From Janibacter sp. A1S7 (lineage in GTDB: Bacteria; Actinomycetota; Actinomycetes; Actinomycetales; Dermatophilaceae): DNA of 64,000 bases. Numbering within the stretch: the first letter of the stretch is position 1; each line of letters begins with the position of its first letter. Below, one piece after another: positions 19,437 through 55,202 of this stretch. The notes under the pieces are model-generated. The model made no database searches, had not been told where the DNA came from, and worked only from the letters and a program-made list of their open reading frames with translations. The stretch lies in the NCBI RefSeq assembly GCF_037198315.1, contig NZ_CP144913.1:2604001-2668000 (forward strand), written 5' to 3'. A program made the translations under genes and the position numbers.

Positions 19437-19521
19437 CCTCCCCGACGAACTGCTGCAGGCTCGAGTTCGTATTGCCTGCAGCACGACGAGGTGCTGCTGA
19501 CTCAACGAAGTGCTGCCAGGT
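19437..19521 (+). repeat. Dispersed repeat, copy A (three 17-bp units)
   Basis: Units matching ACGAAGTGCTGCTGGCT occur at 19445-19461, 19486-19502 and 19505-19521. The element opens with CCTCCCCGACGAACTGC, which reappears inverted at the far end of copy B. It fills most of the space between the argA-like gene and the AbiEi/Vsr-like gene. Confidence 0.85.
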
Positions 19522-19550
19522 CGTGACGGCTGCGCCGACGATGAAGGGAA

Positions 19551-20462
19551 TCAGGCGACGGCGACGCGCAGGGCGGCCTCGATGAGTCCACGGACGCGGC
19601 GCGGATGGCGCAGGTCTGACCACATCAACCGCACCACGACGTAACCGCGCCGGCGCAGATCGTCCTCGCGGCGCTTCTCGGCGACGAGGTCACCGCGGTC
19701 GTCGTACTTCGCGGCCCCATCGAATTCGAGGATCACCCGCGTGCCCGTGATGAGGAAGTCCACCCGCCACGGGCCGACCCACACCTGCGGCTCGAGCTCG
19801 TACCCGAGATCGGTGCAGACCTGCCGGGTCAGGGTCTCCCCCGGCGACTCGTGGCGCCCATCGACCGTGGAGAGAGCACGCCGTACCGCACCGATCCCCT
19901 TCACACCCCGGGAGACCTCTGCCGTGGCGACCGCGATCTCGGCCGGGGTGACGAGCTGGCGTGCCACGGCGGCGTCGGCGGCCACGAGGGCGGTGTTCGG
20001 CGTGCCCACGAGACCCGCGTGCACGAGCGAGACCGCCACCGGGGCGCAGGGTACCGGCACCTCGATGCGCGGTGGCTTCTCGACCGGGACGAGGTTGCCG
20101 ACCGGGCTCCACACGGTGAAGTCGCTGCCGCGTCGGGTGGTTCGCACGTCCCCACGCACGAGGTGCACGCGGCTGAGGTCCGCGTCGACGAGCGGGAGGC
20201 CCCGCAGCAGGATGGCCGAGTGGGCGGTCGCCCCGGACCTGTGAGCATGTCTGCGCGTGATCGCGATCGTGCGCAGCAGGTGGCGCTCCACCGGGTCCTC
20301 TGGCGTCTCGGTCGACCACCCGCCGCGGGTGAGGTGGGTCAGCGCTCGCTCCCTGGCGAGCTCGACCAGACGCAGTCTGGGCACCCCGGCCTGCTCTGCA
20401 TCCTTGGTCATGAAGACCCTGTTGACCGACAACTCCCGCAGGATCTCGACTTCGTCATCCAT
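19551..20462 (-). CDS. AbiEi-like N-terminal domain protein with Vsr/DUF559-type nuclease domain
   Basis: A 303-residue protein. The first 50 residues (VNRVFMTKDAEQAGVPRLRL, LVELARERALTHLTRGGW) look like the winged-helix domain of AbiEi-type antitoxins. The C-terminal part (about 225-290) resembles the very-short-patch-repair/DUF559 nuclease fold: WRVDFLITGTRVILEFDG, EKRREDDLRRRGYVVVRLMW, with D and E in positions of a PD-(D/E)xK site. Such proteins are abundant orphans in actinobacteria; function is unproven and could be defence or DNA repair. It is bracketed by inverted repeat copies A and B. The ATG at 20462 removes an unsupported upstream extension. Confidence 0.75.
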   Translation of the reverse strand: MDDEVEILRELSVNRVFMTKDAEQAGVPRLRLVELARERALTHLTRGGWSTETPEDPVERHLLRTIAITRRHAHRSGATAHSAILLRGLPLVDADLSRVHLVRGDVRTTRRGSDFTVWSPVGNLVPVEKPPRIEVPVPCAPVAVSLVHAGLVGTPNTALVAADAAVARQLVTPAEIAVATAEVSRGVKGIGAVRRALSTVDGRHESPGETLTRQVCTDLGYELEPQVWVGPWRVDFLITGTRVILEFDGAAKYDDRGDLVAEKRREDDLRRRGYVVVRLMWSDLRHPRRVRGLIEAALRVAVA

Positions 20463-20550
20463 GGCAGCAGTCTGCTCAGGACGAAGGGGGTGCCCCTCGA
20501 CTTTTCCACAGGCTCCGCCCGCGGCAGCCACGCACCTGACATCTGCGCCG

Positions 20551-20628
20551 CACGTCGTTGAGTCAGCAGTATCACGAGGTGGTGCTGGCTATACGAAGTG
20601 CTGCCTGCAGCAGTTCGTTCGGGGAGGG
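20551..20628 (-). repeat. Dispersed repeat, copy B (inverted relative to copy A)
   Basis: Units at 20574-20590 (ACGAGGTGGTGCTGGCT) and 20593-20609. Read on the minus strand it runs parallel to copy A for about 75 bp, sharing the opening CCTCCCCGA, GAACTGCTGCAGGC, TTCGTAT and CTGCTGACTCAACGA. Confidence 0.85.
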
Positions 20629-20632
20629 CATG

Positions 20633-20674
20633 GCGAAGGGGAGGTGGCCAGCGATCTGGCCACCTCCCCTTCGC
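20633..20674 (-). terminator. Terminator hairpin of clpC
   Basis: Perfect 19-bp arms (20633-20651 and 20656-20674) with the tetraloop CGAT lie 39 nt after the clpC stop. The outer ends are the word GCGAAGGGG and its complement. No T tract follows. Copy B of the repeat begins 5 nt beyond. Confidence 0.85.
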
Positions 20675-20712
20675 AACGGTCGCTGAGCGACCTCCTCAGG
20701 GACCGGTCACGG

Positions 20713-23238
20713 TCAGTCGGCGGAGGACCCGCCGACGCCCCCTTCGAGGAGCGGGACGTCGAGATCGCCGACGTTGGGCGTGCCGTGGAAGGTGAACTTC
20801 GCCGACTTGCCCTCGCCCTCGACGTCGACCGCGACGATCTCGCCGGCGGACAGTTCGCCGAAGAGGATCTTCTCGGAGAGCACGTCCTCGATCTCGCGCT
20901 GGATGGTGCGCTTGAGCGGACGGGCACCCAGCACCGGGTCGTAGCCGCGCTTGGCCAGCAGCTCCTTGGCCGCGGACGTGAGCTCCATGCCCATGTCCTT
21001 GTCCTTCAGACGCTTGTCCAGCTTGGCGACCTCGAGGTCGACGATCTGCACCAGCTCGTCCTGGCTCAGCTGCGGGAAGACGATCGTGTCGTCGACGCGG
21101 TTGAGGAACTCCGGACGGAAGTGGTTCTTCAGCTCGTCGATGACCTTGCCCTTCATCCGCTCGTAGTCGGTGCGGTCGTCCTTGTTGGCGACGAAGCCCA
21201 TCGACCCCTTGGAGATGTCCCGGGTACCGAGGTTCGTCGTCATCAGGATGATGGTGTTCTTGAAGTCGACCATCCGGCCCTGCGAGTCGGTCAGACGGCC
21301 GTCCTCGAGCACCTGGAGCAGCGAGTTGAAGATCTCCGGGTGGGCCTTCTCGACCTCGTCGAAGAGGACCACCGAGAACGGCTTGCGGCGCACCTTCTCC
21401 GTCAGCTGGCCACCCTCGTCGTACCCGACGTAGCCGGGAGGCGAGCCGAAGAGACGGCTGACCGTGTGCTTCTCGGAGTACTCCGACATGTCGAGGGTGA
21501 TCAGGCTGTCCTCGTCGCCGAAGAGGAACTCCGCCAAGGCCTTGGCCAGCTCGGTCTTACCGACCCCCGTCGGACCGGCGAAGATGAACGAGCCACCGGG
21601 GCGGTGCGGGTCCTTCAGACCGGCGCGGGTACGACGGATCGCTGCCGAGAGGCCGTTGATCGCGTCATCGTTACCGATGACCCGCTTGTGCAGCTCGGCC
21701 TCCATGTTGAGCAGCCGGGTCGACTCCTCCTCGGAGAGCTTGAAGACCGGGATACCGGTCGACGCGGCGAGCACCTCGGCGATCAGCTCTTCGTCGACCT
21801 CGGCCACGACGTCCATGTCGCCGGCCTTCCACTCCTCCTCGCGCTTGGCCTTGTCCGCGAGCAGGTTCTTCTCGTCGTCGCGCAGACCGGCGGCCTTCTC
21901 GAAGTCCTGGCCGTCGATGGCCGACTCCTTCTCCAGACGGACCTGGGCGATCCTGTCGTCGAACTCCTTCAGCTCCGGCGGAGCCGTCATCCGGCGGATG
22001 CGCAGACGTGCGCCGGCCTCGTCGATGAGGTCGATCGCCTTGTCCGGCAGGAAGCGGTCGTTGACGTACCGGTCGGCCATCGTGACCGCGGCCACGATCG
22101 CCGGGTCGGTGATGGTCACCTTGTGGTGCGCCTCGTAGCGGTCGCGCAGGCCCTTGAGCATCTCGATGGCGTGCGCCAGGGAGGGCTCGTCGACCTGGAT
22201 CGGCTGGAAACGGCGCTCCAGCGCGGAGTCCTTCTCGATGTGCTTGCGGTACTCCTCGAGCGTGGTCGCACCGATCGTCTGCAACTCACCGCGGGCCAGC
22301 ATCGGCTTCAGGATGCTGGCGGCGTCGATGGCGCCCTCTGCCGCCCCGGCACCGACGAGGGTGTGGATCTCGTCGATGAAGAGGATGATGTCGCCGCGGG
22401 TCTTGATCTCCTTGAGCACCTTCTTCAGGCGCTCCTCGAAGTCACCTCGGTAACGGCTACCGGCGACGAGCGAGCCGAGGTCGAGCGTGTAGAGCTGCTT
22501 GTCCTTCAGCGGCTCCGGGACGTTCTCGTCGACGATGTCCTGCGCCAGGCCCTCGACGACGGCGGACTTGCCGACGCCGGGCTCACCGATGAGCACCGGG
22601 TTGTTCTTCGTGCGACGCGAGAGCACCTGCATGATGCGCTCGATCTCCTTGGTGCGCCCGATGACCGGGTCGATCTGACCGTCACGGGCAGCCTGGGTCA
22701 GGTTGCGACCGAACTGGTCGAGCACGAGGGAGCCGGCCGGCTGGCCCTCCTGCTGGCCCGATCCGGCGCCGACACCCGCTGCCTGGCCCTCCTTGCCACC
22801 CTGGTAGCCGGAGATCAGCTGGATGACGGTCTGGCGCACCCGGCCGAGGTCCGCGCCGAGCTTGACGAGCACCTGGGCGGCCACCCCTTCGCCCTCGCGG
22901 ATGAGGCCGAGCAGGATGTGCTCGGTGCCGATGTAGTTGTGACCGAGCTGCAAGGCCTCGCGCAGGGAGAGCTCGAGCACCTTCTTGGCGCGCGGGGTGA
23001 AGGGGATGTGCCCCGACGGCGCCTGCTGGCCCGGACCGATGATGTCCTGGACCTGCTCGCGGACGGCATCGAGGGAGACCCCGAGGGACTCGAGTGCCTT
23101 GCTCGCCACCCCTTCGCCCTCGTGGATGAGGCCGAGCAGGATGTGCTCGGTGCCGATGTAGTTGTGGTTGAGGAGGCGTGCCTCCTCCTGGGCCAGGACC
23201 ACGACCCGGCGGGCCCGGTCGGTGAACCGTTCGAACAT
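20713..23238 (-). CDS. clpC: ATP-dependent Clp protease ATP-binding subunit ClpC
   Basis: An 841-residue AAA+ unfoldase. Two Clp_N repeats ([20 protein letters not shown] and [17 protein letters not shown]) are followed by AAA-1 (Walker [15 protein letters not shown]), a middle region with a UVR-type segment, and AAA-2 ([14 protein letters not shown], then [10 protein letters not shown]). It feeds substrates to ClpP1P2 and is essential in mycobacteria. The ATG at 23238 starts the conserved [11 protein letters not shown]; a GAAGGGG ribosome site is upstream. A ClgR-like site lies about 140 nt upstream. The 1101-codon open frame on the opposite strand is a shadow. Confidence 0.97.
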
Positions 23239-23273
23239 GGGATCTACCCCTTCAATGTGTCGCTCAGACCACG

Positions 23274-23279
23274 ATGCTA
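23274..23279 (-). promoter_or_regulatory. Possible -10 element of clpC
   Basis: TAGCAT on the minus strand about 35 nt before the ATG; it would give a short leader with the GAAGGGG ribosome site. Confidence 0.35.
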
Positions 23280-23373
23280 CGTGCCCGCCCCGTGTTCTTC
23301 GGGGTCGAGCCATGTCTTGGATGCCAACGCCGGCCAGGACGCGGCTGTTCCACCGCGGGGGCCGTACCGCCCG

Positions 23374-23391
23374 TGTTCGCTCTCAGCGCAC
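23374..23391 (-). promoter_or_regulatory. ClgR-like activator site upstream of clpC
   Basis: Read on the minus strand, TGTGCGCTGAGAGCGAAC matches the corynebacterial ClgR consensus as I recall it (WNNWCGCYNANRGCGWWS) at all but one position; the core CGCTGAGAGCG is exact. ClgR activates clpC and clpP genes in Corynebacterium and Mycobacterium (established). The site lies between the monooxygenase stop and the clpC promoter region. Confidence 0.5.
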
Positions 23392-23396
23392 AGGCG

Positions 23397-23711
23397 TCAG
23401 TCGGTGGCGGGCCGCGGTACGTCGATGACGACGTCGAAACCCATGAGGTCAGCACCGGAGGCGACCGGCTTCTTCCCCTCGCCCGCGTGCGCGGCCCGCG
23501 CGTCACCGTCGCGCCACGCGACGAAGGACTCCTCGTCGGCCCACCAGGTGATCACGAAGTAGCGGTCCTCCCCCTCCGTCGGTCGCAGCAGCTGGAAGCC
23601 CTCGAACCCCGGCGACTCGTCCACGGTGCCCTTGCGCTCGGCGAACCGACGCTCGAGCTCTTCGCGCGCCTGCTCGGGCACGGTGATCGTGTTGATCTTG
23701 ACGATGCTCAT
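23397..23711 (-). CDS. Antibiotic biosynthesis monooxygenase (ABM) family protein, MhuD-like
   Basis: A 104-residue dimeric ferredoxin-like fold protein: VKINTITVPEQAREELERRF, ESPGFEGFQLLRPTEGEDRY and ITWWADEESFVAWRDG are classic ABM segments. Mycobacterial MhuD, a haem-degrading member, is encoded close to clpC1 (Rv3592 and Rv3596c), so haem degradation is a reasonable guess, but the ligand residues cannot be verified here. The ATG is leaderless (TACGGT then 6 nt). Confidence 0.8.
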   Translation of the reverse strand: MSIVKINTITVPEQAREELERRFAERKGTVDESPGFEGFQLLRPTEGEDRYFVITWWADEESFVAWRDGDARAAHAGEGKKPVASGADLMGFDVVIDVPRPATD

Positions 23712-23717
23712 GGCTCG

Positions 23718-23723
23718 ACCGTA
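23718..23723 (-). promoter_or_regulatory. -10 element of the ABM protein gene (leaderless)
   Basis: TACGGT, 6 nt, then ATG at 23711. Confidence 0.55.
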
Positions 23724-23774
23724 TCGCCCCCCGAGTGGCGTGCCGGGCGGCGGGAGCCCGAGACGGTGTGGGCC

Positions 23775-25286
23775 TCAGCCGCCGCCACTGGTCGAGGTCA
23801 GCTCGCCGTCGACCGGACATGCGTGGCGCTGGACCGTCCGCCCCGCGGCGACGTCCTCTCGCGTGTCGTCCGCAGGTCCTGCCGCGAGGTCATCACTGCG
23901 CAACAGGAAGAGAGCCAGGACACCACCACCGGCGACGACGGCGGCCGAGACCCACATCGCGCGGTCGAATCCGGGATCGAGCAGCGCCGGGGTCGACAAG
24001 GCGTCGCCGGTCAGGCCCACGAGGCTCGGGATGGCCGCGACGGCAAGCAGCCCACCGGTGCGGGCGACGGCGTTGTTGGTTCCCGAGGCGGCACCGGCCC
24101 GTTCGTCCGGAGCCGCACCGAGTGCGGTGGTCGTCACCGGGGCGACGATGCTCGTCAGACCGAACCCGAAGACGGTCACCGCAGGGAGCACATCGGTGAG
24201 GAAGGAGGCGTCGGGGCCGGCCCGGGTCATCATCACCATGCCCACCGCCATCACGATCGGCCCGATCGTCAACGGCCACCGGGGACCGATCTTCTGCGAC
24301 AGGTCCCCCGCACGGGAGGACAGGACCAGCATGATCAGGGTCACCGGCAGCAGCGCGGTCCCGGCCTCGAGCGCCGACCAGCCGGCGGTGACCTGCAGCT
24401 GGATCGACAGCAGGAAGAACATCACGCCCATCCCGCCGTAGATGACGAAGGTCAGCACGTTGGCCACCGCGAACGCACGCACGCCGAACAGGTCCAGCGG
24501 CAGCATCGGCTGCTCGTGCCGACGCTCGGCAACCCACAGGGCGACGACACCGAGCGCACCCACGACGACGGCGCCCTTCTCGACGATCGAGAATCCCCTC
24601 TCGGGGCCCTCGATGAAGGCATACGACACCGCCCCGAGCACGAGGGCGGACAGCGCCGCCCCGCGAAGATCCAATCTGGAGTGGCGGGCACGGGGGTCGA
24701 TCGTCTCGGGCACCCACCGCGAGAGCACGACCACGGCGATGGCCACGGGCACGTTCACGACGAACACCCACCGCCACGAGATCTCCACCAGCAGACCGCC
24801 GAGCAGGGGGCCGATCGCCCCGGCCAGGCCGGTGATGCCCGACCACGCGCCGACGCCGCGGCCGCGATCGGCCCGGCGCAGCGACGACTCGATGATCGCC
24901 AGACTGCCCGGCGTCAGCAGCGCACCACCGACACCCTGCAGCAGTCGGAACCCGACAAGGGCCTCGGTGTTCCAGGCGAGGGCACACAGCAACGAAGCCA
25001 CGGCGAACCACACCACGCCGACCCGATAGATGCGCAGCCTCCCGTACCGGTCCCCCAGGGACCCGCCGACGAGGATGAACGCGGCCAGGGTGAGCGTGTA
25101 GCCGTTGATGATCCACTTCTGGCCGGAGGAGTTCGCCCCCAGATCGGCGGCCAGCGCGGGAAGAGCGACGTTGACGACCGTGGCCGTCAACGAGGCCACT
25201 GCGGAGCCGAGGACCACGGTGGACAGCACGGTGCGGCCCTTCGGCGAGTCGAGCTCGATCCCCGGCTCGTCTCCGTTCACCGCCAC
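23775..25286 (-). CDS. MFS transporter, DHA2 (EmrB/QacA) family
   Basis: A 503-residue drug:proton antiporter-type protein with about 14 hydrophobic helices. The loop 2-3 motif GSLGDRYGRLRIYRVGV and motif C (ITGLAGAIGPLLGGLLVE) are intact, and TATVVNVALPALAADL marks helix 1. The GTG at 25286 was chosen because GGGAGGAG lies 5 nt upstream. The open frame extends 200 codons further but runs antisense through the divergent reductase gene. Substrates are unknown; the cytosolic tail is short and acidic. Confidence 0.9.
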   Translation of the reverse strand: MAVNGDEPGIELDSPKGRTVLSTVVLGSAVASLTATVVNVALPALAADLGANSSGQKWIINGYTLTLAAFILVGGSLGDRYGRLRIYRVGVVWFAVASLLCALAWNTEALVGFRLLQGVGGALLTPGSLAIIESSLRRADRGRGVGAWSGITGLAGAIGPLLGGLLVEISWRWVFVVNVPVAIAVVVLSRWVPETIDPRARHSRLDLRGAALSALVLGAVSYAFIEGPERGFSIVEKGAVVVGALGVVALWVAERRHEQPMLPLDLFGVRAFAVANVLTFVIYGGMGVMFFLLSIQLQVTAGWSALEAGTALLPVTLIMLVLSSRAGDLSQKIGPRWPLTIGPIVMAVGMVMMTRAGPDASFLTDVLPAVTVFGFGLTSIVAPVTTTALGAAPDERAGAASGTNNAVARTGGLLAVAAIPSLVGLTGDALSTPALLDPGFDRAMWVSAAVVAGGGVLALFLLRSDDLAAGPADDTREDVAAGRTVQRHACPVDGELTSTSGGG

Positions 25287-25316
25287 GATGGCTCCTCCCG
25301 GTCGCGAGAATGCACC

Positions 25317-25322
25317 TACGCT
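25317..25322 (+). promoter_or_regulatory. -10 element of the flavin reductase gene (leaderless)
   Basis: TACGCT, 6 nt, then ATG at 25329. Confidence 0.6.
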
Positions 25323-25328
25323 GCCTCC

Positions 25329-25916
25329 ATGCGCACGGTCTTCGACACCAGCGATCCTTCCACGGCCAGCTACGACCTGCTCACGAGCATCGTCGTCCCG
25401 AGGCCCATCGCCTGGATCACGACCGTGGGCGCCGACGGTGTCGGCAACCTCGCGCCGCACTCCTTCTTCACCGTCGCCTGCCAAGAACCGCCGATGGTCA
25501 GCTTCTCCTCGGTGGGGCGCAAGGACACCCTGCGCAACATCCTCGCGACCGGGTACTTCGTGGTGAACCTCGTCTCCGAGGGGATGGAGGACCTCGCCAA
25601 CGCGAGCAGCGCTCCCTTCGCCGCCGGTGTGGACGAGGCCGACGCCCTGCACATCCCGCTCGAGCCGAGCGAGGTCGTGCCCGTCCCCCGCGTCGCCGAC
25701 TCCGCCACCTCCATCGAGTGCCGGCTGCACTCGAGCCTCAAGCTCGGCAACTCCCACCTCGTCATCGGGGAGGTCAAGGCCATCACCGTGCGGGAGGACG
25801 CCCTCGAGGACGGGCGACCGACGATGGCTGCGCTGCGGCCCCTCTCCCGACTGGGGCGCGACGAGTGGGGCTGCTCTCCGGAGGTCATGCACCTCACCCG
25901 GCCCACGCGGCCGTGA
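25329..25916 (+). CDS. Flavin reductase family protein (FMN-binding split barrel)
   Basis: A 195-residue protein with the split-barrel flavin fold: VVPRPIAWITTVGADGVGNL, APHSFFTVACQEPPMVSFSS, KDTLRNILATGYFVVNLV and LGNSHLVIGEV are the expected FMN contact segments. It may reduce flavins for a monooxygenase; the partner is not evident. It is divergent from the MFS gene, with only 42 nt between starts, and its stop codon directly abuts the stop of the convergent nei gene with no terminator visible. Confidence 0.85.
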   Translation: MRTVFDTSDPSTASYDLLTSIVVPRPIAWITTVGADGVGNLAPHSFFTVACQEPPMVSFSSVGRKDTLRNILATGYFVVNLVSEGMEDLANASSAPFAAGVDEADALHIPLEPSEVVPVPRVADSATSIECRLHSSLKLGNSHLVIGEVKAITVREDALEDGRPTMAALRPLSRLGRDEWGCSPEVMHLTRPTRP

Positions 25917-26741
25917 TCAGCTGCGCCGCTGGCAGTTCCCGCACCAGTAGAGGGTGCGCCCGGCGACGTCCTTGGCTCTGATCACCGAGCCGCACCGGTC
26001 GCACTGCTGGCCGGTCCGCTTGTAGACGTAGGAGGTCCGCTCGTCGAGGTGCACGTCCTCCCCCTCCAGCAGGGCGGACTCGATCTCCTGCACCTCGTGG
26101 GCGACCGTCACGATCCGACCCGTCGCCACCCCCAGCGGCAGCAGCCGACGCAGATCGGACCAGATCAGCTCCCAGGAGGTGCGCTTGAGCCGCTCCCCCG
26201 GTGTCATCGGGTTGATCCGGTGCCGGTGCAGCACCTCGCAGCGGTAGACGTTGCCGATCCCCGCCAACACGTCCTGCTCCATCAGCAGCGCCGCGACGGA
26301 CTTGCGCGATCGGCGGATGCGCTCCCAGGCCGGGTCACCATCGATGTCCCGCAGCGGATCCGGGCCGAGCTTGTGGTGCACTGCCGACTCCTCGTCCGGG
26401 GTGATGACCCGGCAGGTGATCGGCCCACGCAGGTCGGCCGCGTGGTCGTCGGTGGCGATGCGGCACCGCACCTGGCCGACCACCGGGCGCTCCCCGACGT
26501 ACGCCGTCGCGTCGATGGTGAAGGTCCCGATCAGCCCCAGGTGGACGTGCAGCACCCGCTCGCCGGCGAACTCGACGAAGAGGTGCTTGCCGTGGGCGCG
26601 CGCTTCGACCACCGCGTGCTCGTCGAGGAGCGCTGCGCCGGCGGCGAAGCGGCCCTGCGGGGAGGACACGGACACGACCCGGCCGGCAAAGGCGGCGTGG
26701 AGGTCGCGGGCGATCCGGTGGAGGGTGTGACCTTCAGGCAT
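25917..26741 (-). CDS. nei: Endonuclease VIII-type DNA glycosylase (Nei1)
   Basis: A 274-residue Fpg/Nei family enzyme. The catalytic N-terminus is MPEGHTLHRIA (P2, E3), as in mycobacterial Nei1, rather than the MPELPE of Fpg. The helix-two-turn-helix segment DVLAGIGNVYRCEVL is intact, and the C-terminal zinc finger has CDRCG and WCGNC. It excises oxidised pyrimidines and cleaves the strand. Its ATG is 10 nt after the Ku stop, so the two are co-transcribed. The longer open frame upstream is the Ku gene in another phase. Confidence 0.93.
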   Translation of the reverse strand: MPEGHTLHRIARDLHAAFAGRVVSVSSPQGRFAAGAALLDEHAVVEARAHGKHLFVEFAGERVLHVHLGLIGTFTIDATAYVGERPVVGQVRCRIATDDHAADLRGPITCRVITPDEESAVHHKLGPDPLRDIDGDPAWERIRRSRKSVAALLMEQDVLAGIGNVYRCEVLHRHRINPMTPGERLKRTSWELIWSDLRRLLPLGVATGRIVTVAHEVQEIESALLEGEDVHLDERTSYVYKRTGQQCDRCGSVIRAKDVAGRTLYWCGNCQRRS

Positions 26742-26751
26742 GGCGAAGGGG

Positions 26752-27714
26752 TCAGCCCGCCTTCTTCTTGGCGCTCGACTTCTTCGCCGGTGCCTTCGTC
26801 GACGACTTCTTCGAGGAAGCGGACTTCGCGGCCGTCGACTTCTTCGACGACTGCTTCGTGGCAGCGGCCTTCTTCGACGGCGTCTTCTTCGCGGTGGACT
26901 TCTGCGTCTCCTCGGTGGGGGCGCTCGTGCTCTCCCCACGGGACTTCTTGGCCTTGTCGACCGACTTCGCCAGCGCCGCGAGCAGGTCGACGACCTCGCC
27001 ACCCTCATCCTCCTCGACCTCGGGCGCGCGGACCTCGCCCCCCTCGATCTTCGCCTTGACGAGGTTCTCGACGGCGATGGCGTAGTCGTCCTCGAACTCG
27101 TCGGCGTCGTAGTCACCGGCGAGCTCGTCGATGAGCAGCCGGGCCATCGACATCTCCTTCTCGCTGGCCTCCCCCGCCTCGTCGACGGCGGCGAAGTCGG
27201 CGCTGCGGATCTCGTCGGGCCACAGCATCGTCTGCATGACGATGACCCCGTCACGCACGCGCAGGACGGCCATCGTCATCCGGGTGCGGATGGAGACGGT
27301 GACGACCGCCATCCGACCCTGCGCCCGGAGTGCCTCGCGCAGCAGGACGTATGGCTTGGTGGCCGACCTGTCCGGCTCCAGGTAGTAGCTCTTGTCCAGG
27401 AGCATCGGGTCGATCTGGTCCTCGGGGACGAACTTCTCGACGCTGATCTCCTTGCTGGAGCGCGTCGGCAGACCGGCCATGTCCTCGTCGGTGAGCACGA
27501 CCATCTCGCCGTCCTCGGTCTCGTAACCCTTGGCGATGTCGTCGTAGGAGACCTCCTCGCCGTCGATGCTGCAGAAACGCTTGTAGCGGATCCGCCCTCC
27601 GTCGGTGCGGTGCACCTGGCGGAACTGCACGTCGTGGTTCTCCGTCGCGGAGTACAACCGGACCGGGACGTTGACGAGACCGAAGGAGACGGCCCCCTTC
27701 CAGATTGCGCGCAT
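26752..27714 (-). CDS. ku: Non-homologous end-joining protein Ku
   Basis: A 320-residue bacterial Ku homodimer subunit that binds broken DNA ends. The core beta-barrel spans residues 1-260 (MRAIWKGAVSFGLVNVPVRL, YKRFCSIDGEEV, YYLEPD, KPYVLLREAL, MLWPDEIR). The last 60 residues are a repetitive Lys/Ser/Thr/Ala tail like the C-terminal extension of mycobacterial Ku, which tunes DNA binding. The ATG has CATGCT 6 nt upstream. The frame extends upstream in the track but without Ku similarity. The ligase and polymerase partners lie 0.5 kb away on the other strand. Confidence 0.96.
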   Translation of the reverse strand: MRAIWKGAVSFGLVNVPVRLYSATENHDVQFRQVHRTDGGRIRYKRFCSIDGEEVSYDDIAKGYETEDGEMVVLTDEDMAGLPTRSSKEISVEKFVPEDQIDPMLLDKSYYLEPDRSATKPYVLLREALRAQGRMAVVTVSIRTRMTMAVLRVRDGVIVMQTMLWPDEIRSADFAAVDEAGEASEKEMSMARLLIDELAGDYDADEFEDDYAIAVENLVKAKIEGGEVRAPEVEEDEGGEVVDLLAALAKSVDKAKKSRGESTSAPTEETQKSTAKKTPSKKAAATKQSSKKSTAAKSASSKKSSTKAPAKKSSAKKKAG

Positions 27715-27720
27715 GGTCCC

Positions 27721-27726
27721 AGCATG
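27721..27726 (-). promoter_or_regulatory. Possible -10 element of ku
   Basis: CATGCT, 6 nt, then ATG at 27714; an imperfect but correctly spaced hexamer. Confidence 0.35.
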
Positions 27727-27745
27727 CCCGTTGTCGGTGCGCACG

Positions 27746-28217
27746 TCAGCCCCACGGCCGCCCAGGTGGCTGCGCCAGGGACATCCGCCGCGCCCCGGCG
27801 CCGGGAACCGCCACGACGACGGTGGGTGCGTCGTGACCGAGGTCGGCGAAGGCCCGGGCCACTGCCTCCTGCGTGTGCACCCGGGCATCCTGCTCGACGA
27901 GCGCGAGGACGCCGCCACCGAACCCGCCGCCGGTCATGCGGGCACCGTGCGCCCGCCGAGAGCGCTGCACGGACCGCAACGTCCACCTGGGGAACGGTGA
28001 TCTCGACGTCATCGCGCATGGAGGCGTGCGAGGCCGCCAGCACCGGACCGATGACACGTGGATCGCAGCAGACGAAGACAGATCCGCCCCGGCAGGTATG
28101 GAGCTGGCGATCGCGACATCCAGCCCGGGGACGTCGTGGCCCTGCTGCTGCAGGGCCCAGCCCACACCCGCGAGGTAGCCGGAGCGGACCTGAGCCGCCA
28201 CGACGCGGCAACCACCC
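27746..28217 (-). pseudogene. galK: Galactokinase remnant with deletions and a frameshift
   Basis: Three GHMP-kinase fragments read in order on the minus strand. At about 28190-28075 GLDVAIASSIPAGADLSSSA matches the galactokinase ATP loop. Directly after it, in a shifted phase, LAASHASMRDDVEITVPQVD (about 28050-27960) matches a region normally some 150 residues further on. Near 27946-27953 a single-base shift leads into GARMTGGGFGGGVLALVEQD and the C-terminus, ending at 27746. The first 80-90 residues, including the substrate motif, are absent. It is therefore a decayed galK fossil lying between ku and the ligase gene. Confidence 0.85.
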
Positions 28218-28225
28218 CATGAGGG

Positions 28226-28231
28226 CAGGAT
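28226..28231 (+). promoter_or_regulatory. Possible -10 element of the ligase gene
   Basis: CAGGAT, 6 nt, then ATG at 28238. Confidence 0.35.
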
Positions 28232-28237
28232 GGAGGC

Positions 28238-29170
28238 ATGCGCCCGATGCTCGCCACGCTCACCGAGTCGGTCCCTGCGGGGCCGCAGTGGGTGCACGAG
28301 GTCAAGTGGGACGGCATGCGCGTCCTCGTCGAGGCGAAGGGGGGCGCCCTCACCGTGACGAGTCGCACGGACCGCGACGTCACGGTCGCCTACCCCGAGC
28401 TCGTACCCCTGGCCGACCTGTACGACGACATGGTGCTCGACGGTGAGCTCGTCGCCCTCGTTGACGGGCGCCCGTCCTTCGCCGGTCTGGCCGAGCGGAT
28501 GCACGTCGGCAACGCGCGTCGGGCAGCGGCGCTCGCCTCGAGCCGACCCGTGACGCTCATGGCCTTCGACCTGCTCCGCCTGCTCGGGCAGGACCTCACC
28601 TCCCAGCCGTGGGCGGCCCGGCGGCAGCTCCTCGAGCAGCTCGAGATCGACGGTCCACGCTGGCAGGTCCCCCCGACCTACGACGACGGCGAGGGCCTGC
28701 TCGACGCGACCGCCGACCAGGGCCTGGAGGGCATCGTCAGCAAGCGCCGCGCCTCCGCCTACGCCAGCGGGCGCCGCTCCCCCGACTGGCTCAAGCTGCC
28801 GCACCGGCACAGCGAGTCGGTCGTCATCGGTGGTTGGCGCAGGGAGGTCGGCGGCTCCCTCCTGGGCGCGGTGCTCGTCGGCGTGCCGGGCCCGGACGGG
28901 TGGGACTTCGTCGGTCGGGTCGGTGCCGGCCTCGCCGGCCGCGCGGGGGCCGCCGTGCTCCACCGGCTGCGCCCGATCGAGCGGGGGGGCTCCCCCTTCG
29001 CCTCGCACGTGCCACGGGAGGACGCGACCGGGACGACGTGGGTCGAGCCCGAGGTCGTCATCGACGTCGCGAGCCTCGGCCGGGCCAGCGGGCGGCTGCG
29101 CCAGCCGTCGTACCTGCGGGTGCGCACCGACCTCACCTCCGCCGACCTGTGGGAGACCACCGATGGCTGA
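28238..29170 (+). CDS. ATP-dependent DNA ligase (LigC/LigD ligase-domain type)
   Basis: A 310-residue ligase. The adenylated lysine is K23 in EVKWDGMRVL; the other nucleotidyltransferase motifs include VLDGELVALVDGRPSF, EGIVSKRRASAYASGRRS and WLKLPH. An OB-fold domain follows (GWRREVGGSLLGAVLVG). The family seals nicks in end joining. No 3-prime-phosphoesterase domain is present. It is translationally coupled to the polymerase gene, whose ATG lies 8 nt inside its 3-prime end. Confidence 0.92.
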   Translation: MRPMLATLTESVPAGPQWVHEVKWDGMRVLVEAKGGALTVTSRTDRDVTVAYPELVPLADLYDDMVLDGELVALVDGRPSFAGLAERMHVGNARRAAALASSRPVTLMAFDLLRLLGQDLTSQPWAARRQLLEQLEIDGPRWQVPPTYDDGEGLLDATADQGLEGIVSKRRASAYASGRRSPDWLKLPHRHSESVVIGGWRREVGGSLLGAVLVGVPGPDGWDFVGRVGAGLAGRAGAAVLHRLRPIERGGSPFASHVPREDATGTTWVEPEVVIDVASLGRASGRLRQPSYLRVRTDLTSADLWETTDG

Positions 29171-30056: not shown

Positions 30057-30096
30057 GCGTCTCCGAAACGTCCAAGACACCACCGGTCGAGGACGA

Positions 30097-30102: not shown

Positions 30103-30108
30103 GGGGCC

Positions 30109-31792: not shown

Positions 31793-31794
31793 GG

Positions 31795-33351: not shown

Positions 33352-33466
33352 GCCCTCCTCCTCCCACCCAGCGAACTGCTGCAGGCTCGAGTTCGTGTTG
33401 CCAGCAGCACGACGTGGTGCTGCTCGCTCAACCAAATAGAGCCAGCAGCACTTCGTCGGGGAGGGC
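33352..33466 (-). repeat. Dispersed repeat, copy C (both inverted ends present)
   Basis: Units at 33371-33387 (GCGAACTGCTGCAGGCT), 33412-33428 (ACGTGGTGCTGCTCGCT) and, inverted, 33440-33456 (AGCCAGCAGCACTTCGT). The left half matches copy A with the same 41-bp unit spacing; the right end GTCGGGGAGGGC is the inverted form of the opening of copy A. It reaches the nadC stop codon and lies 48 nt upstream of the lysS start. Confidence 0.85.
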
Positions 33467-46230: not shown

Positions 46231-46240
46231 GAGATCCTCC

Positions 46241-46702
46241 TCAGGCGAAGGTGCCGGCGGCGCGCGCCTTGTCGACGTCCATCCACATGATCTCCCAGAT
46301 GTGATCGTCGAGATCAGCGTAGGAGCGGCCGTACATGAAGTCCCCGAACTCGTCGGTACGTACATCACGCCCACCAGCCTCGAGGGCGCGATCGACCAGG
46401 TCGTCGACATCCTCGCGACTGTCGGCCGACAGACACGTCAGCACCTCATGGCGGCCCCGGCCGGCGACCCGGGCGTCGTGGAACGTGGCGAAGAACTCGG
46501 TCTGCAGCAGCATCGCGTAGTGATTCGGACCGAGCTCGAGGGCCAACGCGCCCTCGTTGCACATCTCCTCGTTGAACCCGTATCCCAGCGCGGTGAAGAA
46601 GTCACGGCTGCGCTGCGGGTCCGCCACCGGCAGGTTGACGAAAATCATCTGGTGGACGCGCGTTCCGACCGTGGTGTCCGACATGGTGGTCTGCTTGGCC
46701 AT
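46241..46702 (-). CDS. VOC family protein (glyoxalase/bleomycin-resistance fold)
   Basis: A 153-residue protein: MIFVNLPVADPQRSRDFFTA, LELGPNHYAMLLQTEFFATF, VDDLVDRALEAGGRD and YGRSYADLDDHIWEIMWMD are typical of the extradiol-like VOC group that often neighbours ECF sigma genes. GAGGAG lies 7 nt before the ATG. The reading frame is open for a further 177 codons upstream, where a possible membrane protein is encoded in phase. Substrate unknown. Confidence 0.85.
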   Translation of the reverse strand: MAKQTTMSDTTVGTRVHQMIFVNLPVADPQRSRDFFTALGYGFNEEMCNEGALALELGPNHYAMLLQTEFFATFHDARVAGRGRHEVLTCLSADSREDVDDLVDRALEAGGRDVRTDEFGDFMYGRSYADLDDHIWEIMWMDVDKARAAGTFA

Positions 46703-46979
46703 GCTGCTCTCCTCGAACGAAGGGGCACCCCGTCGGCACCCTGTCCAGTATCGACCCACCGGACGACCCGAAATCATCGCTCGACCCGGGACGATTTCCT
46801 CGATCGTCGACGATGACCAGTTGGCGGTCGGCACACGACGACTCATCCCCCGTCCGCTCATCCACTGCTGCCGCGCGGGACCGCACCTCGGCACGGGGAT
46901 CCGGAGACGGGACGATCGTGCTCCCGGGCGAGGGGTCCAGCGGTCGTCGTGGGGTCCGCCGACCGGCAGGCTCGATCGG

Positions 46980-47233
46980 CCGAGTCGGGGCTCATGGTGG
47001 CGGATGGCTTGCAGGGTCCGCCACGCCAGGGACAGCCAGCAGCCCACCGCGACGGCCGCGAAGGCGGCCGGGACCCAGTGGTGGAGGAGAAGTGAGGCCG
47101 CCACGGCGCAGGAGAAGGCTGTCAGGTTCGCCACCACGTCGTAGATCGGAGCCACGAAACGTCGGTTCAGGACATGGATGCCGGCCACCGTCAGGCCGCA
47201 TGCAAAGGTCACGGAGAGGAGGAAGCTCACCAC
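46980..47233 (-). other. Possible small membrane protein frame lacking its own stop
   Basis: From the GTG at 47233 the minus strand encodes about 80 residues with plausible membrane helices (FLLSVTFACGLTVAGIHVL; AFSCAVAASLLLHHWVP; AAFAAVAVGCWLSLAW). After this the frame continues through Arg/Pro-rich sequence that looks non-coding and joins the VOC gene in phase without a stop. It may be a decayed or mis-terminated membrane protein gene, or a chance frame. Otherwise the 606-nt gap between the VOC gene and the DUF3180 gene holds nothing I recognise. Confidence 0.35.
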
Positions 47234-47308
47234 AACGGCCAGTATCCTCCGCCGAGCACCGCAGACCCTCGGGCAGTCGACCTCGTGGATCGACGCCGGG
47301 CCCGGGCG

Positions 47309-47779
47309 TCAGGCGGCGCCGCCGTCCTCGCCCTCGTCGTCGTCGCGGTCGATCCGGCACCAGGACTGCACGAGCAGACCCGCGACGGCCATGAGCAGGC
47401 CGCCCAGCGCCGCCAGGCCGTGCTGGAGAGCCAGGACGCCCCGACCACCGAAGTCGTGGTCCGGCAGCAGGGCAAGCGCCTGCCCGAGGTAGAACCCGCC
47501 GGTGATCGCGCCGGTGAGGGCGCTGGCCTGGGCCAGACCGAGCAGGCGGGCTGCGACGACGGGCTCGACGTGGGTGCGGCCGCGCCGCATCCGCCACATC
47601 CGCGAGCCGGCCACGACGACCACGACCGCCATACCCACGAGCAGGACGCCGGCCACCCAACCGACGCGCAGCCCTGAGTGACCACCGGTGAGCCACCAGC
47701 GGCCGAAGCCCCAGCTGAGGACCATCACGGCGACGGTGACGAACGCCGTCGTCGAGATCTTCAGGCCGGTCCTCAGCAC
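47309..47779 (-). CDS. DUF3180 family membrane protein
   Basis: A 156-residue protein with four hydrophobic helices (TAFVTVAVMVLSWGFGRWWL, VGWVAGVLLVGMAVVVVVAG, ALTGAITGGFYLGQAL, GLAALGGLLMAVAGLLVQSW) and an acidic C-terminus. DUF3180 proteins sit beside folK in actinobacteria, as Rv3605c does. The GTG start overlaps the end of folBK by 7 nt, so it is the last gene of the folate operon. Function unknown. Confidence 0.85.
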   Translation of the reverse strand: MLRTGLKISTTAFVTVAVMVLSWGFGRWWLTGGHSGLRVGWVAGVLLVGMAVVVVVAGSRMWRMRRGRTHVEPVVAARLLGLAQASALTGAITGGFYLGQALALLPDHDFGGRGVLALQHGLAALGGLLMAVAGLLVQSWCRIDRDDDEGEDGGAA

Positions 47780-48642
47780 AGGCCGGCCTCGCCGTCGCGC
47801 AGGTCGCAGGTGTCGACGTCCGCGAGCAGCTCGTTCACGGCGACGACCGAGCCGCCGACACGCAGGACCGCCTGCGGGTCGATCCGGGCCCACGGGGCGA
47901 GCACGAAACCGCGCTCGTGCGCCCGTGGATGCGGCAGCGTCAGGTGCGGGTCGTCGCTGACGACGTCGGTCCCGGTCGCGGGGTCGCCGTACTGGATGAG
48001 GTCCAGGTCGAGGCTGCGTGCCCCCCAGCGCACCTCGCGCACCCGGCCGTGACGTGCCTCGACGGCGTGCAGCCGTGCGATCAGCACGGTCGGGCGCAGC
48101 GCCGTCGTGGCCAGCAGGACGGTGTTGGTGTAGCGCGGCTGGTCGGGACCGCCGACCGGGTCCGTCGTGACGAAGGGAGCTCGACGCACCTCGTCGAGAT
48201 CACCGACGAGGTCGTCGATCGCGGCGTCGAGACGCCGCTCGGGGTCCCCGAGGTTGGCGCCCAGGGCGATCACCACGGGAACGGACCGACGGCGCTCGAT
48301 GGTCACCGCGACGTCGCCGAAGGCCACCCCGACGGGTGCCTGGGGCTTGTGGACGGTCACCTCGACGGTCTGCACGTCCGCACGTGCGAGGGCATCCTCG
48401 GCGATCCGCTCGGCGAGCGACTCGATGAGGTCGAGCGAGGGCCCCTCGATCCGGGCGACGACGTCGGCACCGACCTCGGCGTAGTTGATCGTGCGGGCCA
48501 GGTCGTCGGTGGCCCCGGCGGGCGCCAGGTCGAGGTGCAGGACGACGTCGACGACGAACTCCTGACCGTCGCGCTTCTCCCGGGCCAGCACCCCGTGGTG
48601 ACCGTGGGCACGCACGCCCAGCAGGCTGATCCGGTCAGCCAC
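47773..48642 (-). CDS. folBK: Bifunctional dihydroneopterin aldolase / HPPK
   Basis: A 289-residue fusion of two consecutive folate enzymes. Residues 1-118 are FolB (ISLLGVRAHGHHGVLAREKR, NYAEVGADVV, SLDLIESLAERIAE, VTVHKPQAPV); residues 120-289 are FolK (VIALGANLGDPERRLDAAID, RWGARSLDLDLIQYGD, LTLPHPRAHERGFVLAPW). The first cleaves dihydroneopterin and the second pyrophosphorylates the product. The GTG start overlaps the folP stop by 8 nt. In mycobacteria the two are separate adjacent genes; here they are fused. Confidence 0.94.
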   Translation of the reverse strand: MADRISLLGVRAHGHHGVLAREKRDGQEFVVDVVLHLDLAPAGATDDLARTINYAEVGADVVARIEGPSLDLIESLAERIAEDALARADVQTVEVTVHKPQAPVGVAFGDVAVTIERRRSVPVVIALGANLGDPERRLDAAIDDLVGDLDEVRRAPFVTTDPVGGPDQPRYTNTVLLATTALRPTVLIARLHAVEARHGRVREVRWGARSLDLDLIQYGDPATGTDVVSDDPHLTLPHPRAHERGFVLAPWARIDPQAVLRVGGSVVAVNELLADVDTCDLRDGEAGLC

Positions 48643-49558
48643 GCTCCGGCCCTCCGGCAGTTCGCAACTGCTTGGGCTCTTGCGACGGGTGGGGGGCGAG
48701 TCCGGCGGGCAGCTCACCCATCGCCGTGGTCACGTCGATCGCGTCGACCGTGGCGGTGACGTCGTGGACACGGACGCTCCACACCCCTGCTCGTGCGGCT
48801 CGGGCACTGGTGGTGGCCGTCGCCACCGCCCGGGCGTCGAGCGGGCGCTCGTCGCCCTCCCTTCGCCCCACCCTGCCCAGGAATCCCTTGCGGGAGGTCC
48901 CGAGCAGGACCGGGTGGCCGAGGCCGACGACCTCCTCCAGGCCCGCGAGGAGCTCCCAGTTGTGCTCGGCGGTCTTGCTGAAGCCGATGCCCGGATCGAG
49001 GACCAGCTGGTCGGCAGTGGCACCGGCCCCGCGGAGCGCGCCGACGCGCTCTCGCAGTTCGGCACACACCTCGGCGACGACGTCGTCGTAGACGGCCTTC
49101 GACTGCATGTCGTGCGAGTGCCCGCGCCAGTGCATCACGACGAAGGGGACACCGCTCTCGGCGACGAGGGCCGGCATCTGCGGGTCGGCCAGTCCCCCGC
49201 TCACGTCGTTGATGATGGCGCCGCCCGCCTCGAGGGCGGCGCGCGCCACGTCGGCACGCATGGTGTCCACGGAGACGACGACGCCCTCCTTCGCGAGGGC
49301 AGCGACGACGGGCACGACCCGGCGACGCTCCTCCTGAGCCGAGGGACGCTCGGCGCCGGGGCGGGTGGACTCACCGCCGACGTCGACGACGCCGGCACCG
49401 GCAGCGACGAGCTCACGGCCGTGGTCGACCGCCGCCCCGGTCTCGATCCACCGGCCGCCGTCGCTGAAGGAGTCGGGCGTGACGTTGACGACGCCCATGA
49501 CCACCGGTCCGGGCCGGGTCGCCCGGCCCGCGAGGTGCTCGATGACGGCGTGGGTCAC
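48635..49558 (-). CDS. folP: Dihydropteroate synthase
   Basis: A 307-residue sulfonamide-target enzyme joining hydroxymethyldihydropterin pyrophosphate and p-aminobenzoate. Signatures: [15 protein letters not shown] (about residues 21-35), [39 protein letters not shown] and [10 protein letters not shown]. The GTG start overlaps the folE stop (GTGA). It has about 20 extra C-terminal residues rich in Pro and Gln. Confidence 0.96.
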
Positions 49559-50133
49559 CGGGCGGCCCCGGACATCAGCGCCATGGCCTCGGCGCGCGTG
49601 GTCGCGTCCCGCAGCTGGCCCCGCACGGCGGAGGTGATGGTCTTGGCACCCGGCTTGCGCACGCCACGCATCGACATGCACAGGTGCTCCGCCTCGACCA
49701 CGACGATCGCCCCGGCGACGTCGAGGTGCTCGACGAGTGCATCGGCGATCTGGCTGGTCAGGCGCTCCTGCACCTGCGGGCGCCTGGCGAACATGTCGAC
49801 GAGGCGAGCGAGCTTCGACAAGCCGGTGACCTTGCCGGTCTTGCCGGGCAGGTAGCCCAGGTGCGCGACCCCGTGGAAGGGCACGAGGTGGTGCTCACAG
49901 GTGGAGTACAGCTCGATGTCGCGCACGATCACCAGCTCGTCGTGGTCGATGTCGAAGGTCGTCGCGAGCAGTTCCGCGGGGTCCGCGTGCAGCCCGGCGA
50001 AGACCTCCTGGTACGAGCGGGCGACGCGCGCGGGGGTCTCGGTGAGCCCGTCGCGGTCGGGGTCCTCCCCGACCGCGAGCAGGATCTCGCGCACGGCCGC
50101 CTCGATGCGAGCCCGATCGACGTCGCCGGCCAT
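49555..50133 (-). CDS. folE: GTP cyclohydrolase I
   Basis: A 192-residue enzyme that opens the folate pathway by converting GTP to dihydroneopterin triphosphate. The zinc and substrate motifs [18 protein letters not shown] and [20 protein letters not shown] are intact, as is [18 protein letters not shown]. It starts 3 nt after the ftsH stop, in the order ftsH, folE, folP, folBK known from mycobacteria. Confidence 0.97.
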
Positions 50134-50136
50134 GGG

Positions 50137-52263
<2,127 letters not shown>

Positions 52264-52468
52264 ACGGGTACGGGGCTTCCCGGACTTCCTGACTCGACGA
52301 CGTGGCAGCCTCCGGACAACCCGGGGCGAACAGAACGAAACTACCTGAACGCGGGTCGACCACGGCTATGAGGCCAACGAGCATCCTGTCACGGGTGTTC
52401 CCGCTCCCGGCAATTCACGCCCTCGGCAACTCACCCGTCGGTGGCGCCGGCATCAGCCGGTGGGCCGG

Positions 52469-53020
<552 letters not shown>

Positions 53021-53044
53021 GGCTCTCCTTGGGGTCGGCGCTAG

Positions 53045-54061
53045 TCATTGTCCACCAGCTGCGGGGGCCAGGTGCACGCGCCCGTCGGCCCGGCTCGCGC
53101 GCAGGTCGCCGGGCAGGTGCAGCGGCCCCTGCCCGTGCCAGTCGGTGACGAGCCGGTCGCAGGCGGCGACGTGACCGGCGGTGAGCGCCCCGGCGGGCGC
53201 GCCGGCAGCCAGGAGCAGTCGGCGCCAGACCCGGGAGCGAAGGGCGGGTGCCAGGTCCGCGAGCTCGGTCACCGCGACACCCTCCGGGCCCTGGTCGGGC
53301 ACCGCGTCGTCGGCGAGCGCGTCGAGGAGGTCGGCGTCGTCGCGCAGCAGGTCCGCGGTGCGGGTGAGCGCCTCACCGATCCCCGGCCCGAGGGCGCTCT
53401 CCAGCTCGGCCAGCGCGGTGCGGGCCCGCACCCGGGCGAAGGCCGCGTCGTCGTTCATCGGGTCGGTCCACGGCGTCAGGCCCCATGCGGCGCACGCCTC
53501 GTGGGTGGTCCGTCGCGACAGGTGCAGCAGCGGTCGGGCGAAGGGGGTGCCCTCCCGGACGGTGAGCACCGGCATCCCGGCGAGGGAACGGGCGCCGGAG
53601 CCGCGCGCGAGACCGAGGAGAACCTGCTCGGCCTGGTCGTCGCGGGTGTGCCCGAGGAGGACGAGCGTGAGCGGGTTCCCACCGTCGTTCGAGGAACCCA
53701 TCGCTGCCGCCGTCTCCGCGAGGGCGGCGTAGCGGGCGTCGCGGGCGGCTGCCTCGAGGCCCTCCCCCGTCCCGACGACCTCGACGGGGACGACCGCCAC
53801 CGGAGCGAGGCCGACGTCCGCGCACTGCTGTGCGGCGAGCAGGGCGACGTCCGTGGACTCCTCCTGCAGTCCGTGGTCGACGATGATCGCGCCGGCGGTC
53901 ACGTCGTGGTTCGCGGCCTCGGCGGCCAACGCAGCGGCGAGCGCGAGGGAGTCCCCGCCGCCGCTCACCGCGGCGAGCGCCAGCGAGCCGGCGGGCAGCC
54001 CCTCGAGGGCCGCGCGGACCCCCCTTCGGCAGTCTGCTTGGGCGGGGTGACCGGCTCCCAT
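53045..54061 (-). CDS. tilS: tRNA(Ile)-lysidine synthetase
   Basis: A 338-residue N-type ATP pyrophosphatase that converts C34 of tRNA-Ile2 to lysidine. The PP-loop is AVSGGGDSLALA (residues 31-42); IIVDHGLQEES and LLGHTRDDQAEQVLLGLARG are the other motifs. The C-terminal domain is short, as usual in actinobacteria. The ATG overlaps the stop of the metalloprotease gene by one base (TGATG); the longer upstream frame is antisense-free but is the protease gene in another phase. Confidence 0.93.
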   Translation of the reverse strand: MGAGHPAQADCRRGVRAALEGLPAGSLALAAVSGGGDSLALAAALAAEAANHDVTAGAIIVDHGLQEESTDVALLAAQQCADVGLAPVAVVPVEVVGTGEGLEAAARDARYAALAETAAAMGSSNDGGNPLTLVLLGHTRDDQAEQVLLGLARGSGARSLAGMPVLTVREGTPFARPLLHLSRRTTHEACAAWGLTPWTDPMNDDAAFARVRARTALAELESALGPGIGEALTRTADLLRDDADLLDALADDAVPDQGPEGVAVTELADLAPALRSRVWRRLLLAAGAPAGALTAGHVAACDRLVTDWHGQGPLHLPGDLRASRADGRVHLAPAAGGQ

Positions 54062-55104
54062 CAGCCGTGCACCCGGCGCACCCACGCGGCCGGGTCGGTG
54101 ATCTCGAGCGGGGTGGGCAGGGTCTGGGGGGAGGTCCACACGGCGTTGAACCCCTCGACGCCCACCTGCTCCTGGACGGAGCGCACGAAGACCGCGCCGT
54201 CGCGGTACTGGCGCATCTTCGCCTCGAGGCCGAGGAGGCGGCGCAGCAGACGGTCGACGGCCCCGGCCCCCTTCCGTCTCTCGGTGAAGCGGCGCCGGAT
54301 CGCGCGGACGGTCGGCACGTGCGCGGGACCCACGTCGTCCATGACCACGTCCGCATGGCCCTCGAGCAGCGACATGACCGCGGTGACCTTGGCCATCTGT
54401 TCGCGCTGCTCGGGCGTGATGACCAGCTCGGCGAGGCCTTGGCTGTCCCCGCTGAAGACCTTGGGCAGCTGTGTGGCGATCTGCTCGACGCGCTCGCGCA
54501 ACTCGGTCGTGTCGGGCACGAGGTCGACGGCGAGGGTGCGGGCGGAGTCGATGATGTGCTCGCGCAGCCACGGCACCGCGGTGAACTGCACGCGGTGGGT
54601 TTCCTCGTGCAGGCACACCCACAGCCGGAAGTCACGCGGGACGGCCTTGATCTCGCGCTCGGTGTGCACGATGTTCGGCGCGACGAGCAGCAGCGCCGGG
54701 GTGCCGCCGGGGGCGATGTCGTACTGGCCGAGGACCTTGGTGGACAGGAAGGCGAGCATCCCACCGGCCTCGGTGCCGGTGATCTTGCTGCCGACCGCCT
54801 GGGCCAGGCCCGAGGGCTCCTTGTCGCGCCGCTTGGCGACCGCCTCGAGCGCCGGGTCGAGCATCGCGGCCATCGAGTCGGCGTTGACGTCGATCCAGGT
54901 GGGGCGATCGATCACCAGTGGCGGTGGCGCGTCACCGGGGGCGGTCAGGCGGGAGGTGGCCGCGACGGGATCGACGGCCATGGCCGCCAGCTCGCGGATC
55001 TCCTCGACGACCTGGGTGGCCTCCTCCGGCGACACGTCGGGTCCGGGGGGCACGAGGCGGGCTCCGGCGCTCTTGGCGAATGTCCAGTCGACGTAGTTCG
55101 GCAC
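54061..55104 (-). CDS. Zinc-dependent metalloprotease family protein (DUF2342/F420-associated type)
   Basis: A 347-residue protein with the zincin motif HEETH (H166, H170 in WVCLHEETHRVQF) and a downstream LLEGHAD that may supply the third ligand. The start NYVDWTFAKSAGARL and the central APNIVHTEREIKAVPRDFRL are features of an actinobacterial family near tilS (mycobacterial Rv3626c-like; the family also includes proteins named coenzyme F420 biosynthesis-associated). Activity is unproven. The GTG at 55104 is chosen as the first codon of the conserved sequence; copy D of the repeat begins 12 nt upstream. Confidence 0.82.
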   Translation of the reverse strand: MPNYVDWTFAKSAGARLVPPGPDVSPEEATQVVEEIRELAAMAVDPVAATSRLTAPGDAPPPLVIDRPTWIDVNADSMAAMLDPALEAVAKRRDKEPSGLAQAVGSKITGTEAGGMLAFLSTKVLGQYDIAPGGTPALLLVAPNIVHTEREIKAVPRDFRLWVCLHEETHRVQFTAVPWLREHIIDSARTLAVDLVPDTTELRERVEQIATQLPKVFSGDSQGLAELVITPEQREQMAKVTAVMSLLEGHADVVMDDVGPAHVPTVRAIRRRFTERRKGAGAVDRLLRRLLGLEAKMRQYRDGAVFVRSVQEQVGVEGFNAVWTSPQTLPTPLEITDPAAWVRRVHG

Positions 55105-55112
55105 GCCCCCAC

Positions 55113-55202
55113 CATACGAAGTGCTGCTGGCTCTAGTTCGTTTCGTCAGCCGCACCTCGTGCTGAGGCCGGCTCGACGACGTGGTGCTGGCTCTGGTCCG
55201 CG
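55113..55202 (+). repeat. Dispersed repeat, copy D, filling the gap upstream of the metalloprotease gene
   Basis: Units at 55116-55132 (ACGAAGTGCTGCTGGCT, the best match to consensus) and 55176-55192 (ACGACGTGGTGCTGGCT), with AGTTCGT between. The flanking CCTCCCC end is not present. It occupies the whole space between the dacB stop and the metalloprotease start. Confidence 0.8.

Follow-up and report, generated by a model that had tools for sequence, protein, structure and literature searches.

Known hosts of genes of the homing-endonuclease type include group I introns and inteins. In RAYT/REPIN systems, as described in the available text of the source, dispersed extragenic repeats occur as inverted doublets, singlets and tandem forms, together with a repeat-associated gene in the same genome (PMC3116915). 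The locus considered here lies in a 64-kb stretch of Janibacter sp. A1S7 DNA (contig NZ_CP144913.1, positions 2,604,001 to 2,668,000; hereafter the window) and consists of a nuclease gene enclosed by copies of an 86-base-pair (bp) palindromic element that is also dispersed through the genome. From the sequence comparisons set out below, we propose that the repeats and the enclosed gene probably form one genetic system, REPIN/RAYT-like and selfish, that is run by an unrelated nuclease.

This system is likened to RAYT/REPIN in its working and stands outside it by membership. Many dispersed extragenic inverted doublets are present here and the enzyme gene is flanked by the repeat, but the enzyme is a different one: instead of a Y1 transposase, it is a nuclease of Vsr/homing type that carries an AbiEi-like part. 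The end tag of REP sequences, GTAG or CGTC in the accessible part of the description (PMC3733652), is absent from the element. The earlier note on this DNA had suggested a RAYT-like transposase as something to look for; PF01797, for the RAYT-type Y1 (HUH) transposase, gave no match in this genome in a search that was positive in five of 14 control genomes, and a RAYT was therefore rejected as the driver. The EDxHD or Vsr-like homing endonucleases (I-Bth0305I) share the Vsr-like catalytic fold, but the AbiEi-like N-terminal module sets the present protein apart, as does its setting in an intergenic unit whose flanking palindromic arrays are also dispersed as solo copies, the target and cleavage here being putative. 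AbiEi antitoxins of type IV toxin–antitoxin systems resemble the N-terminal part in fold, whereas here a C-terminal nuclease domain is fused to it and the gene has repeats on either side, with others dispersed. Caulobacter VsrA likewise has a DUF559 domain of the PD-(D/E)XK superfamily, but it is tied to cytosine methylation and mismatch repair, and the text available for it makes no mention of flanking repeats (PMC12907096). The literature searched, of which coverage was incomplete (subscription papers, bioRxiv) and which hence provides a weak negative, contained no account of repeats flanking genes of this protein family, and nothing on DUF559 with AbiEi or on REPIN and RAYT in Actinobacteria. 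Because of this, and because the enzyme is unrelated to RAYTs, we judge the system to be categorically new.

The repeats were recognized from a 17-bp unit close to ACGAAGTGCTGCTGGCT, of which the window contains 12 (up to three mismatches) compared with a mean of 0.21 and a maximum of one in shuffled sequence. All ten units that the earlier note had listed, under a count of at least ten, are at their positions with 0–3 mismatches; two more had been overlooked, at 20602-20618 and 33399-33415, both on the minus strand. Across the 3.36-Mb genome there are 57 matches with up to two mismatches compared with three for the pattern read backwards, a copy number far above chance. The units are parts of a rigid element, in which a 26-bp palindrome, a 30-bp palindrome and a second 26-bp palindrome follow one another with 2 bp between them, and the 17-mers start at 0 (plus), +28 (minus), +41 (plus) and +69 (minus). 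The non-random spacings of 41 and 19 bp pointed out previously are real and result from this fixed arrangement, the 19 bp being counted from the third 17-mer to where the last palindrome begins. An alignment of 26 full copies needs no gaps and has 29 invariant columns; their consensus starts with ACGA and ends with TCGT, and the adjoining bases form no fixed tag. The CCTCCCC-type ends also reported for the repeats are a genuine tendency in these copies (51% C in the left 20 bp, 52% G in the right 20 bp), GGGG never occurring on the left nor CCCC on the right. The flanks CCTCCCC/GGGGAGG gave rise to the idea that copies had inserted in the loops of pre-existing terminator stems. This was rejected as a rule, as the flanks belonging to one copy pair no better than swapped flanks taken from different copies (permutation p 0.54); a few copies, for example those at positions 2847477 and 2431848, do have flank stems of 11-12 bp.

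A sequence model built from the full copies located 34 places genome-wide, including one weak place (3120705, E 7e-4); for each genome, this one and the others, 150 out of some 3,500-7,800 candidates received a score from the model, and copy counts are therefore lower bounds. Examination of 32 places put 27 between called open reading frames (ORFs), with 12 in convergent, 12 in tandem and three in divergent arrangement; one of the 27 touches an ORF by 2 bp, and the status of the five overlapped by ORF calls is ambiguous. The element also occurs in tandem form around 68.1 kb, repeating every 60 bp. The 34 places are spread over the genome except for an element-free stretch of 0.88 Mb (1184167-2062419; p 0.0016 for random places). 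A scan of a viral collection with the unit was uninformative, returning at least 120 stretches with, among the matches listed, one match each.

Within the window, two of the four copies (Table 1), A and B, mark the two ends of a single 1.17-kb unit with the nuclease gene between them. Both are truncated, copy A lacking the right-hand portion of the third palindrome and copy B the left-hand portion of the first; copies C and D are full-length. In outline, the earlier view of a REP-like, dispersed, mostly intergenic family with possible multi-site protein binding is supported; the enclosed gene, the association of gene and repeat and the recurrence across the class with different repeat sequences had gone unseen.

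Table 1. Copies of the element and associated features, in window coordinates.
Feature	Position	Strand	Description
Copy A	19445..19521		Unit end downstream of gene: 26-bp palindrome 19445-19470, 30-bp palindrome 19473-19502, 17-bp half palindrome 19505-19521
Nuclease gene	19551..20462	-	303 amino acids: AbiEi-like N-terminal part (~1-201), Vsr/homing-endonuclease-type domain (~203-303)
TGTGGAA motif	20504..20510	-	48 bp upstream of start codon; present in part of gene family
Copy B	20547..20618		Unit end upstream of gene: half-palindrome remnant 20547-20558, 30-bp palindrome 20561-20590, 26-bp palindrome 20593-20618
Copy C	33371..33456		Solo 86-bp element; site empty in G014 and G007
Copy D	55116..55201		Solo 86-bp element, degenerate

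The protein tested positive for an AbiEi-like fold in its N-terminal part and for a Vsr-like catalytic fold in its C-terminal part, and several acidic, lysine and arginine columns of the nuclease domain are invariant in 80 aligned sequences. NCBIfam gave no match for two proteins of the family, whose members go under the names AbiEi-family antitoxin domain protein, endonuclease domain protein or very-short-patch-repair endonuclease. Relatives are common: 61 were found in 16 genomes of the genus, and 119 of 197 genomes across the class have one. The motif TGTGGA[AT] lies mostly 48-49 bp upstream of the start in 24 of 52 family genes of the genus compared with none of 152 control genes, and upstream of three of 29 family genes in the wider class. 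We take it to resemble a DnaA box, and it may tie expression of these genes to replication.

The association between gene and repeat is not confined to this locus. For the genus, 52 of the 61 protein matches were compared flank to flank (nine weak or partial ones were set aside), and a strong repeat was shared between left and right flanks at 40 of the 52 loci. Among 131 control genes two scored likewise, and L117, one of these two, belongs to the family. A control gene in G001, L062:1667-2635, has a strong inverted repeat in both flanks (score 53) and its frame, by eye, resembles a 3-hydroxyacyl-CoA dehydrogenase. Swapped flank pairs matched in 34 of 600 cases, some of them from loci sharing a repeat. 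In the class test 30 loci were fetched from a longer list of matches; one was the window's own, and of the other 29 matching flanking repeats were present at 24 (24 of 28 with ORF-based bounds, compared with 13 of 600 swapped pairs). A single repeat for all family genes was considered and proved wrong: the window's type is found at four of the 52 genus loci, and most others have their own, the flanking repeats differing by protein clade. Among the 43 loci scoring at least 25, a repeat was shared in 40 of 73 protein pairs with at least 60% identity and in none of 830 pairs below 60%; part of this match between protein clade and repeat is common descent at one locus. Genome-wide dispersal was searched in two further families, and both have it: for a second family of this genome, whose gene lies at 1497960, there are 13 dispersed repeat places in addition to the two flanks, and for one in G118, a genome from another order of the class, there are 22 beyond the flanks.

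The window's repeat-flanked unit is also present in three relatives (G005, G009 and G012), whose proteins are 57-64% identical to that of the window. Its length is 1,174 bp in both this genome and G005, compared with 1,153 bp in G009; the G012 unit is cut by a contig end. In all three it lies between genes read by eye as dapE and dapD (one flank compared in G012), and the orthologous place in the present genome holds a solo 86-bp element at position 691512. The unit in the window stands between clpC and a GNAT gene (both named by eye), and the same truncated unit ends are found at both genomic sites. The gene in the window is placed between half palindromes, and the dapE-dapD place here holds the 86-bp solo, the recognition site being putative. 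When the GNAT-clpC interval was compared in 15 relatives, the window's repeat type was found only in G012, as a solo copy, and no clean empty site for the unit was seen, the interval being other DNA of 1.7-5.1 kb in 15 of 15. Conservation of all four regions at the same sites, which the earlier note had named, for distant genera, as grounds against a repeat family, was not observed: at site C there are 12 bp in G014 and 16 bp in G007 compared with about 115 here. Position 2502072 has 86 bp here and 26 bp in G005, with both flanks aligned to the base and a difference of one 60-bp step. The solo at position 710529 has both flanks matching places in G012 and G006 that contain same-family genes with other flanking repeats; in G014, G005, G004 and G007 one flank was comparable.

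Copies within a genome also appear to change together. Between this genome and G014, four orthologous copies are 62.8-77.9% alike (mean 68.9) within flanks that are 83-92% identical, and are no more alike than non-orthologous cross-species copies (69.9%, 266 pairs). Likeness within a genome is 77.1% here (351 pairs) and 85.8% in G014 (45 pairs). This pattern points to conversion among the copies or to renewed occupation of the sites. As a separate observation on G014, loci L125 and L126 (29612 and 3434293) have identical element sequence and flanks, and family matches at 56946 and 3461627 have equal scores; the contig ends may be duplicated in that assembly.

We consider it very likely that repeats and gene are one cognate and mobile system. 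The AbiEi-like module would bind the inverted 17-bp units, much as AbiEi and Rv2827c bind inverted repeats in the part of that study available (PMC7319586), and the Vsr/homing-type domain would cut at or near them. A break repaired from another copy could then spread the unit and solo repeats to intergenic sites, and such repair copying would homogenize the copies within one genome. An 86-bp solo element is exactly what a full unit would be reduced to by recombination between its two 30-bp palindromes, and recombination between 26-bp palindromes would produce 60-bp steps. In its working the system may resemble RAYT/REPIN or, alternatively, a free-standing homing endonuclease gene of which the target has turned into a dispersed repeat. 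Break repair or homing as the way of movement is offered tentatively, as a possibility that falls short of our confidence in the association itself.

Several observations weigh against this proposal. In the genus, 12 of the 52 loci fail to reach the score of 30 that marks a shared repeat. G014 has many copies, and the most uniform of the two genomes compared, yet its closest protein is 39% identical. In one of the four orthologous pairs, the copy at 1082676 and its counterpart L119, likeness is 77.9% compared with 71.7% to the other G014 copies. Covariation in the palindromes among copies within the genome did not exceed that of shuffles under either a three-hairpin or a one-long-hairpin scheme, and a hairpin under selection was rejected on that account. 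No target-site duplication was recognized, including at site C, the sole solo site with clean empty alleles. Finally, some units (L173, L191, L167; by eye) have the same neighbours in several species, and because of this we consider movement to be rare. Taken together, the low-scoring loci, the G014 mismatch, the absent covariation, the lack of target duplication and the stationary units fit a mostly vertical, RAYT-like life better than that of a vigorous transposon.

One rival explanation is that the repeats are operators, with the AbiEi-like protein repressing its own gene through binding to inverted repeats and the dispersed copies constituting a regulon or chromosome-organizing sites under host selection. 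AbiEi-family antitoxins autoregulate via inverted repeats, according to the text available (PMC7319586), sites read as double-stranded DNA would be expected to lack covariation, and all 34 places fall outside 1.184-2.062 Mb (p 0.0016 for random places); however, the repeats are also downstream of the gene, only three of 27 clear places are between divergent genes, where shared promoters would sit, site presence varies between species and the nuclease residues are conserved, so that we regard this as unlikely. It is likewise unlikely that the system has been domesticated, nuclease and repeats serving the host in, for example, repair or phage defence after movement had ceased: solo, full-unit and empty sites vary among species of one genus, despite the units that keep their neighbours and the prediction, in the accessible text, that the Vsr-like DUF559 protein of Caulobacter is a mismatch-repair endonuclease (PMC12907096). 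If the repeats were instead miniature elements of an ordinary transposase, with the nuclease gene merely caught between two copies, such capture would need repeating in many clades with different repeats, and the truncated ends of the unit would not be expected to be alike at two sites; nor is there a Y1 transposase in the genome, in a search that covered Y1 alone of the transposase types (DDE and others were not searched). The short, palindromic and dispersed form of the element and its presence–absence differences suit that view, which we nevertheless find improbable. That the repeats serve the host as terminators in both directions or as RNA hairpins is very improbable, for while the palindromes lie near gene ends between C-rich and G-rich flanks, there is no covariation within the genome, a simple scan of 19000-21000 found no terminator-like site and Rfam gave no match in the ten loci searched.

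Whether the selfish REPIN/RAYT-like system proposed here is one of many is, to us, an evenly balanced question: the AbiEi-Vsr nucleases may make up a large class, so far undescribed, of minimal selfish elements in actinomycetes, with each nuclease recognizing, spreading and homogenizing its own repeat by break-induced copying and with repeat and DNA-binding module co-diversifying into many nuclease–target pairs. If the proposal is correct, a common actinomycete gene family, uncharacterized as far as the literature search shows, would be the enzyme half of a repeat-spreading system, and something other than a RAYT would have been identified as the driver of these bacteria's dispersed palindromic repeats. 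Each nuclease gene would also have its presumed target next to it, which would provide many natural nuclease–target pairs and make recognition rules and repeat movement directly testable.

The surroundings of the window's unit hold further repeats. Where copy B stands in the window, immediately ahead of the clpC terminator, L264 (G009) and L262 (G006) have apparent repeats of other families of the system, which suggests that insertions in different species favour this site. The GNAT-clpC interval also yields a different repeat that looks dispersed, of the type TTCGAGACGCTCGCTGCGCGAGCTCCTCAGGGAGC, which is found in that interval of G004, G011, G013 and G015 (L263, L266, L267 and L269), and sequence similar to it is present at 20674-20710 of the window.

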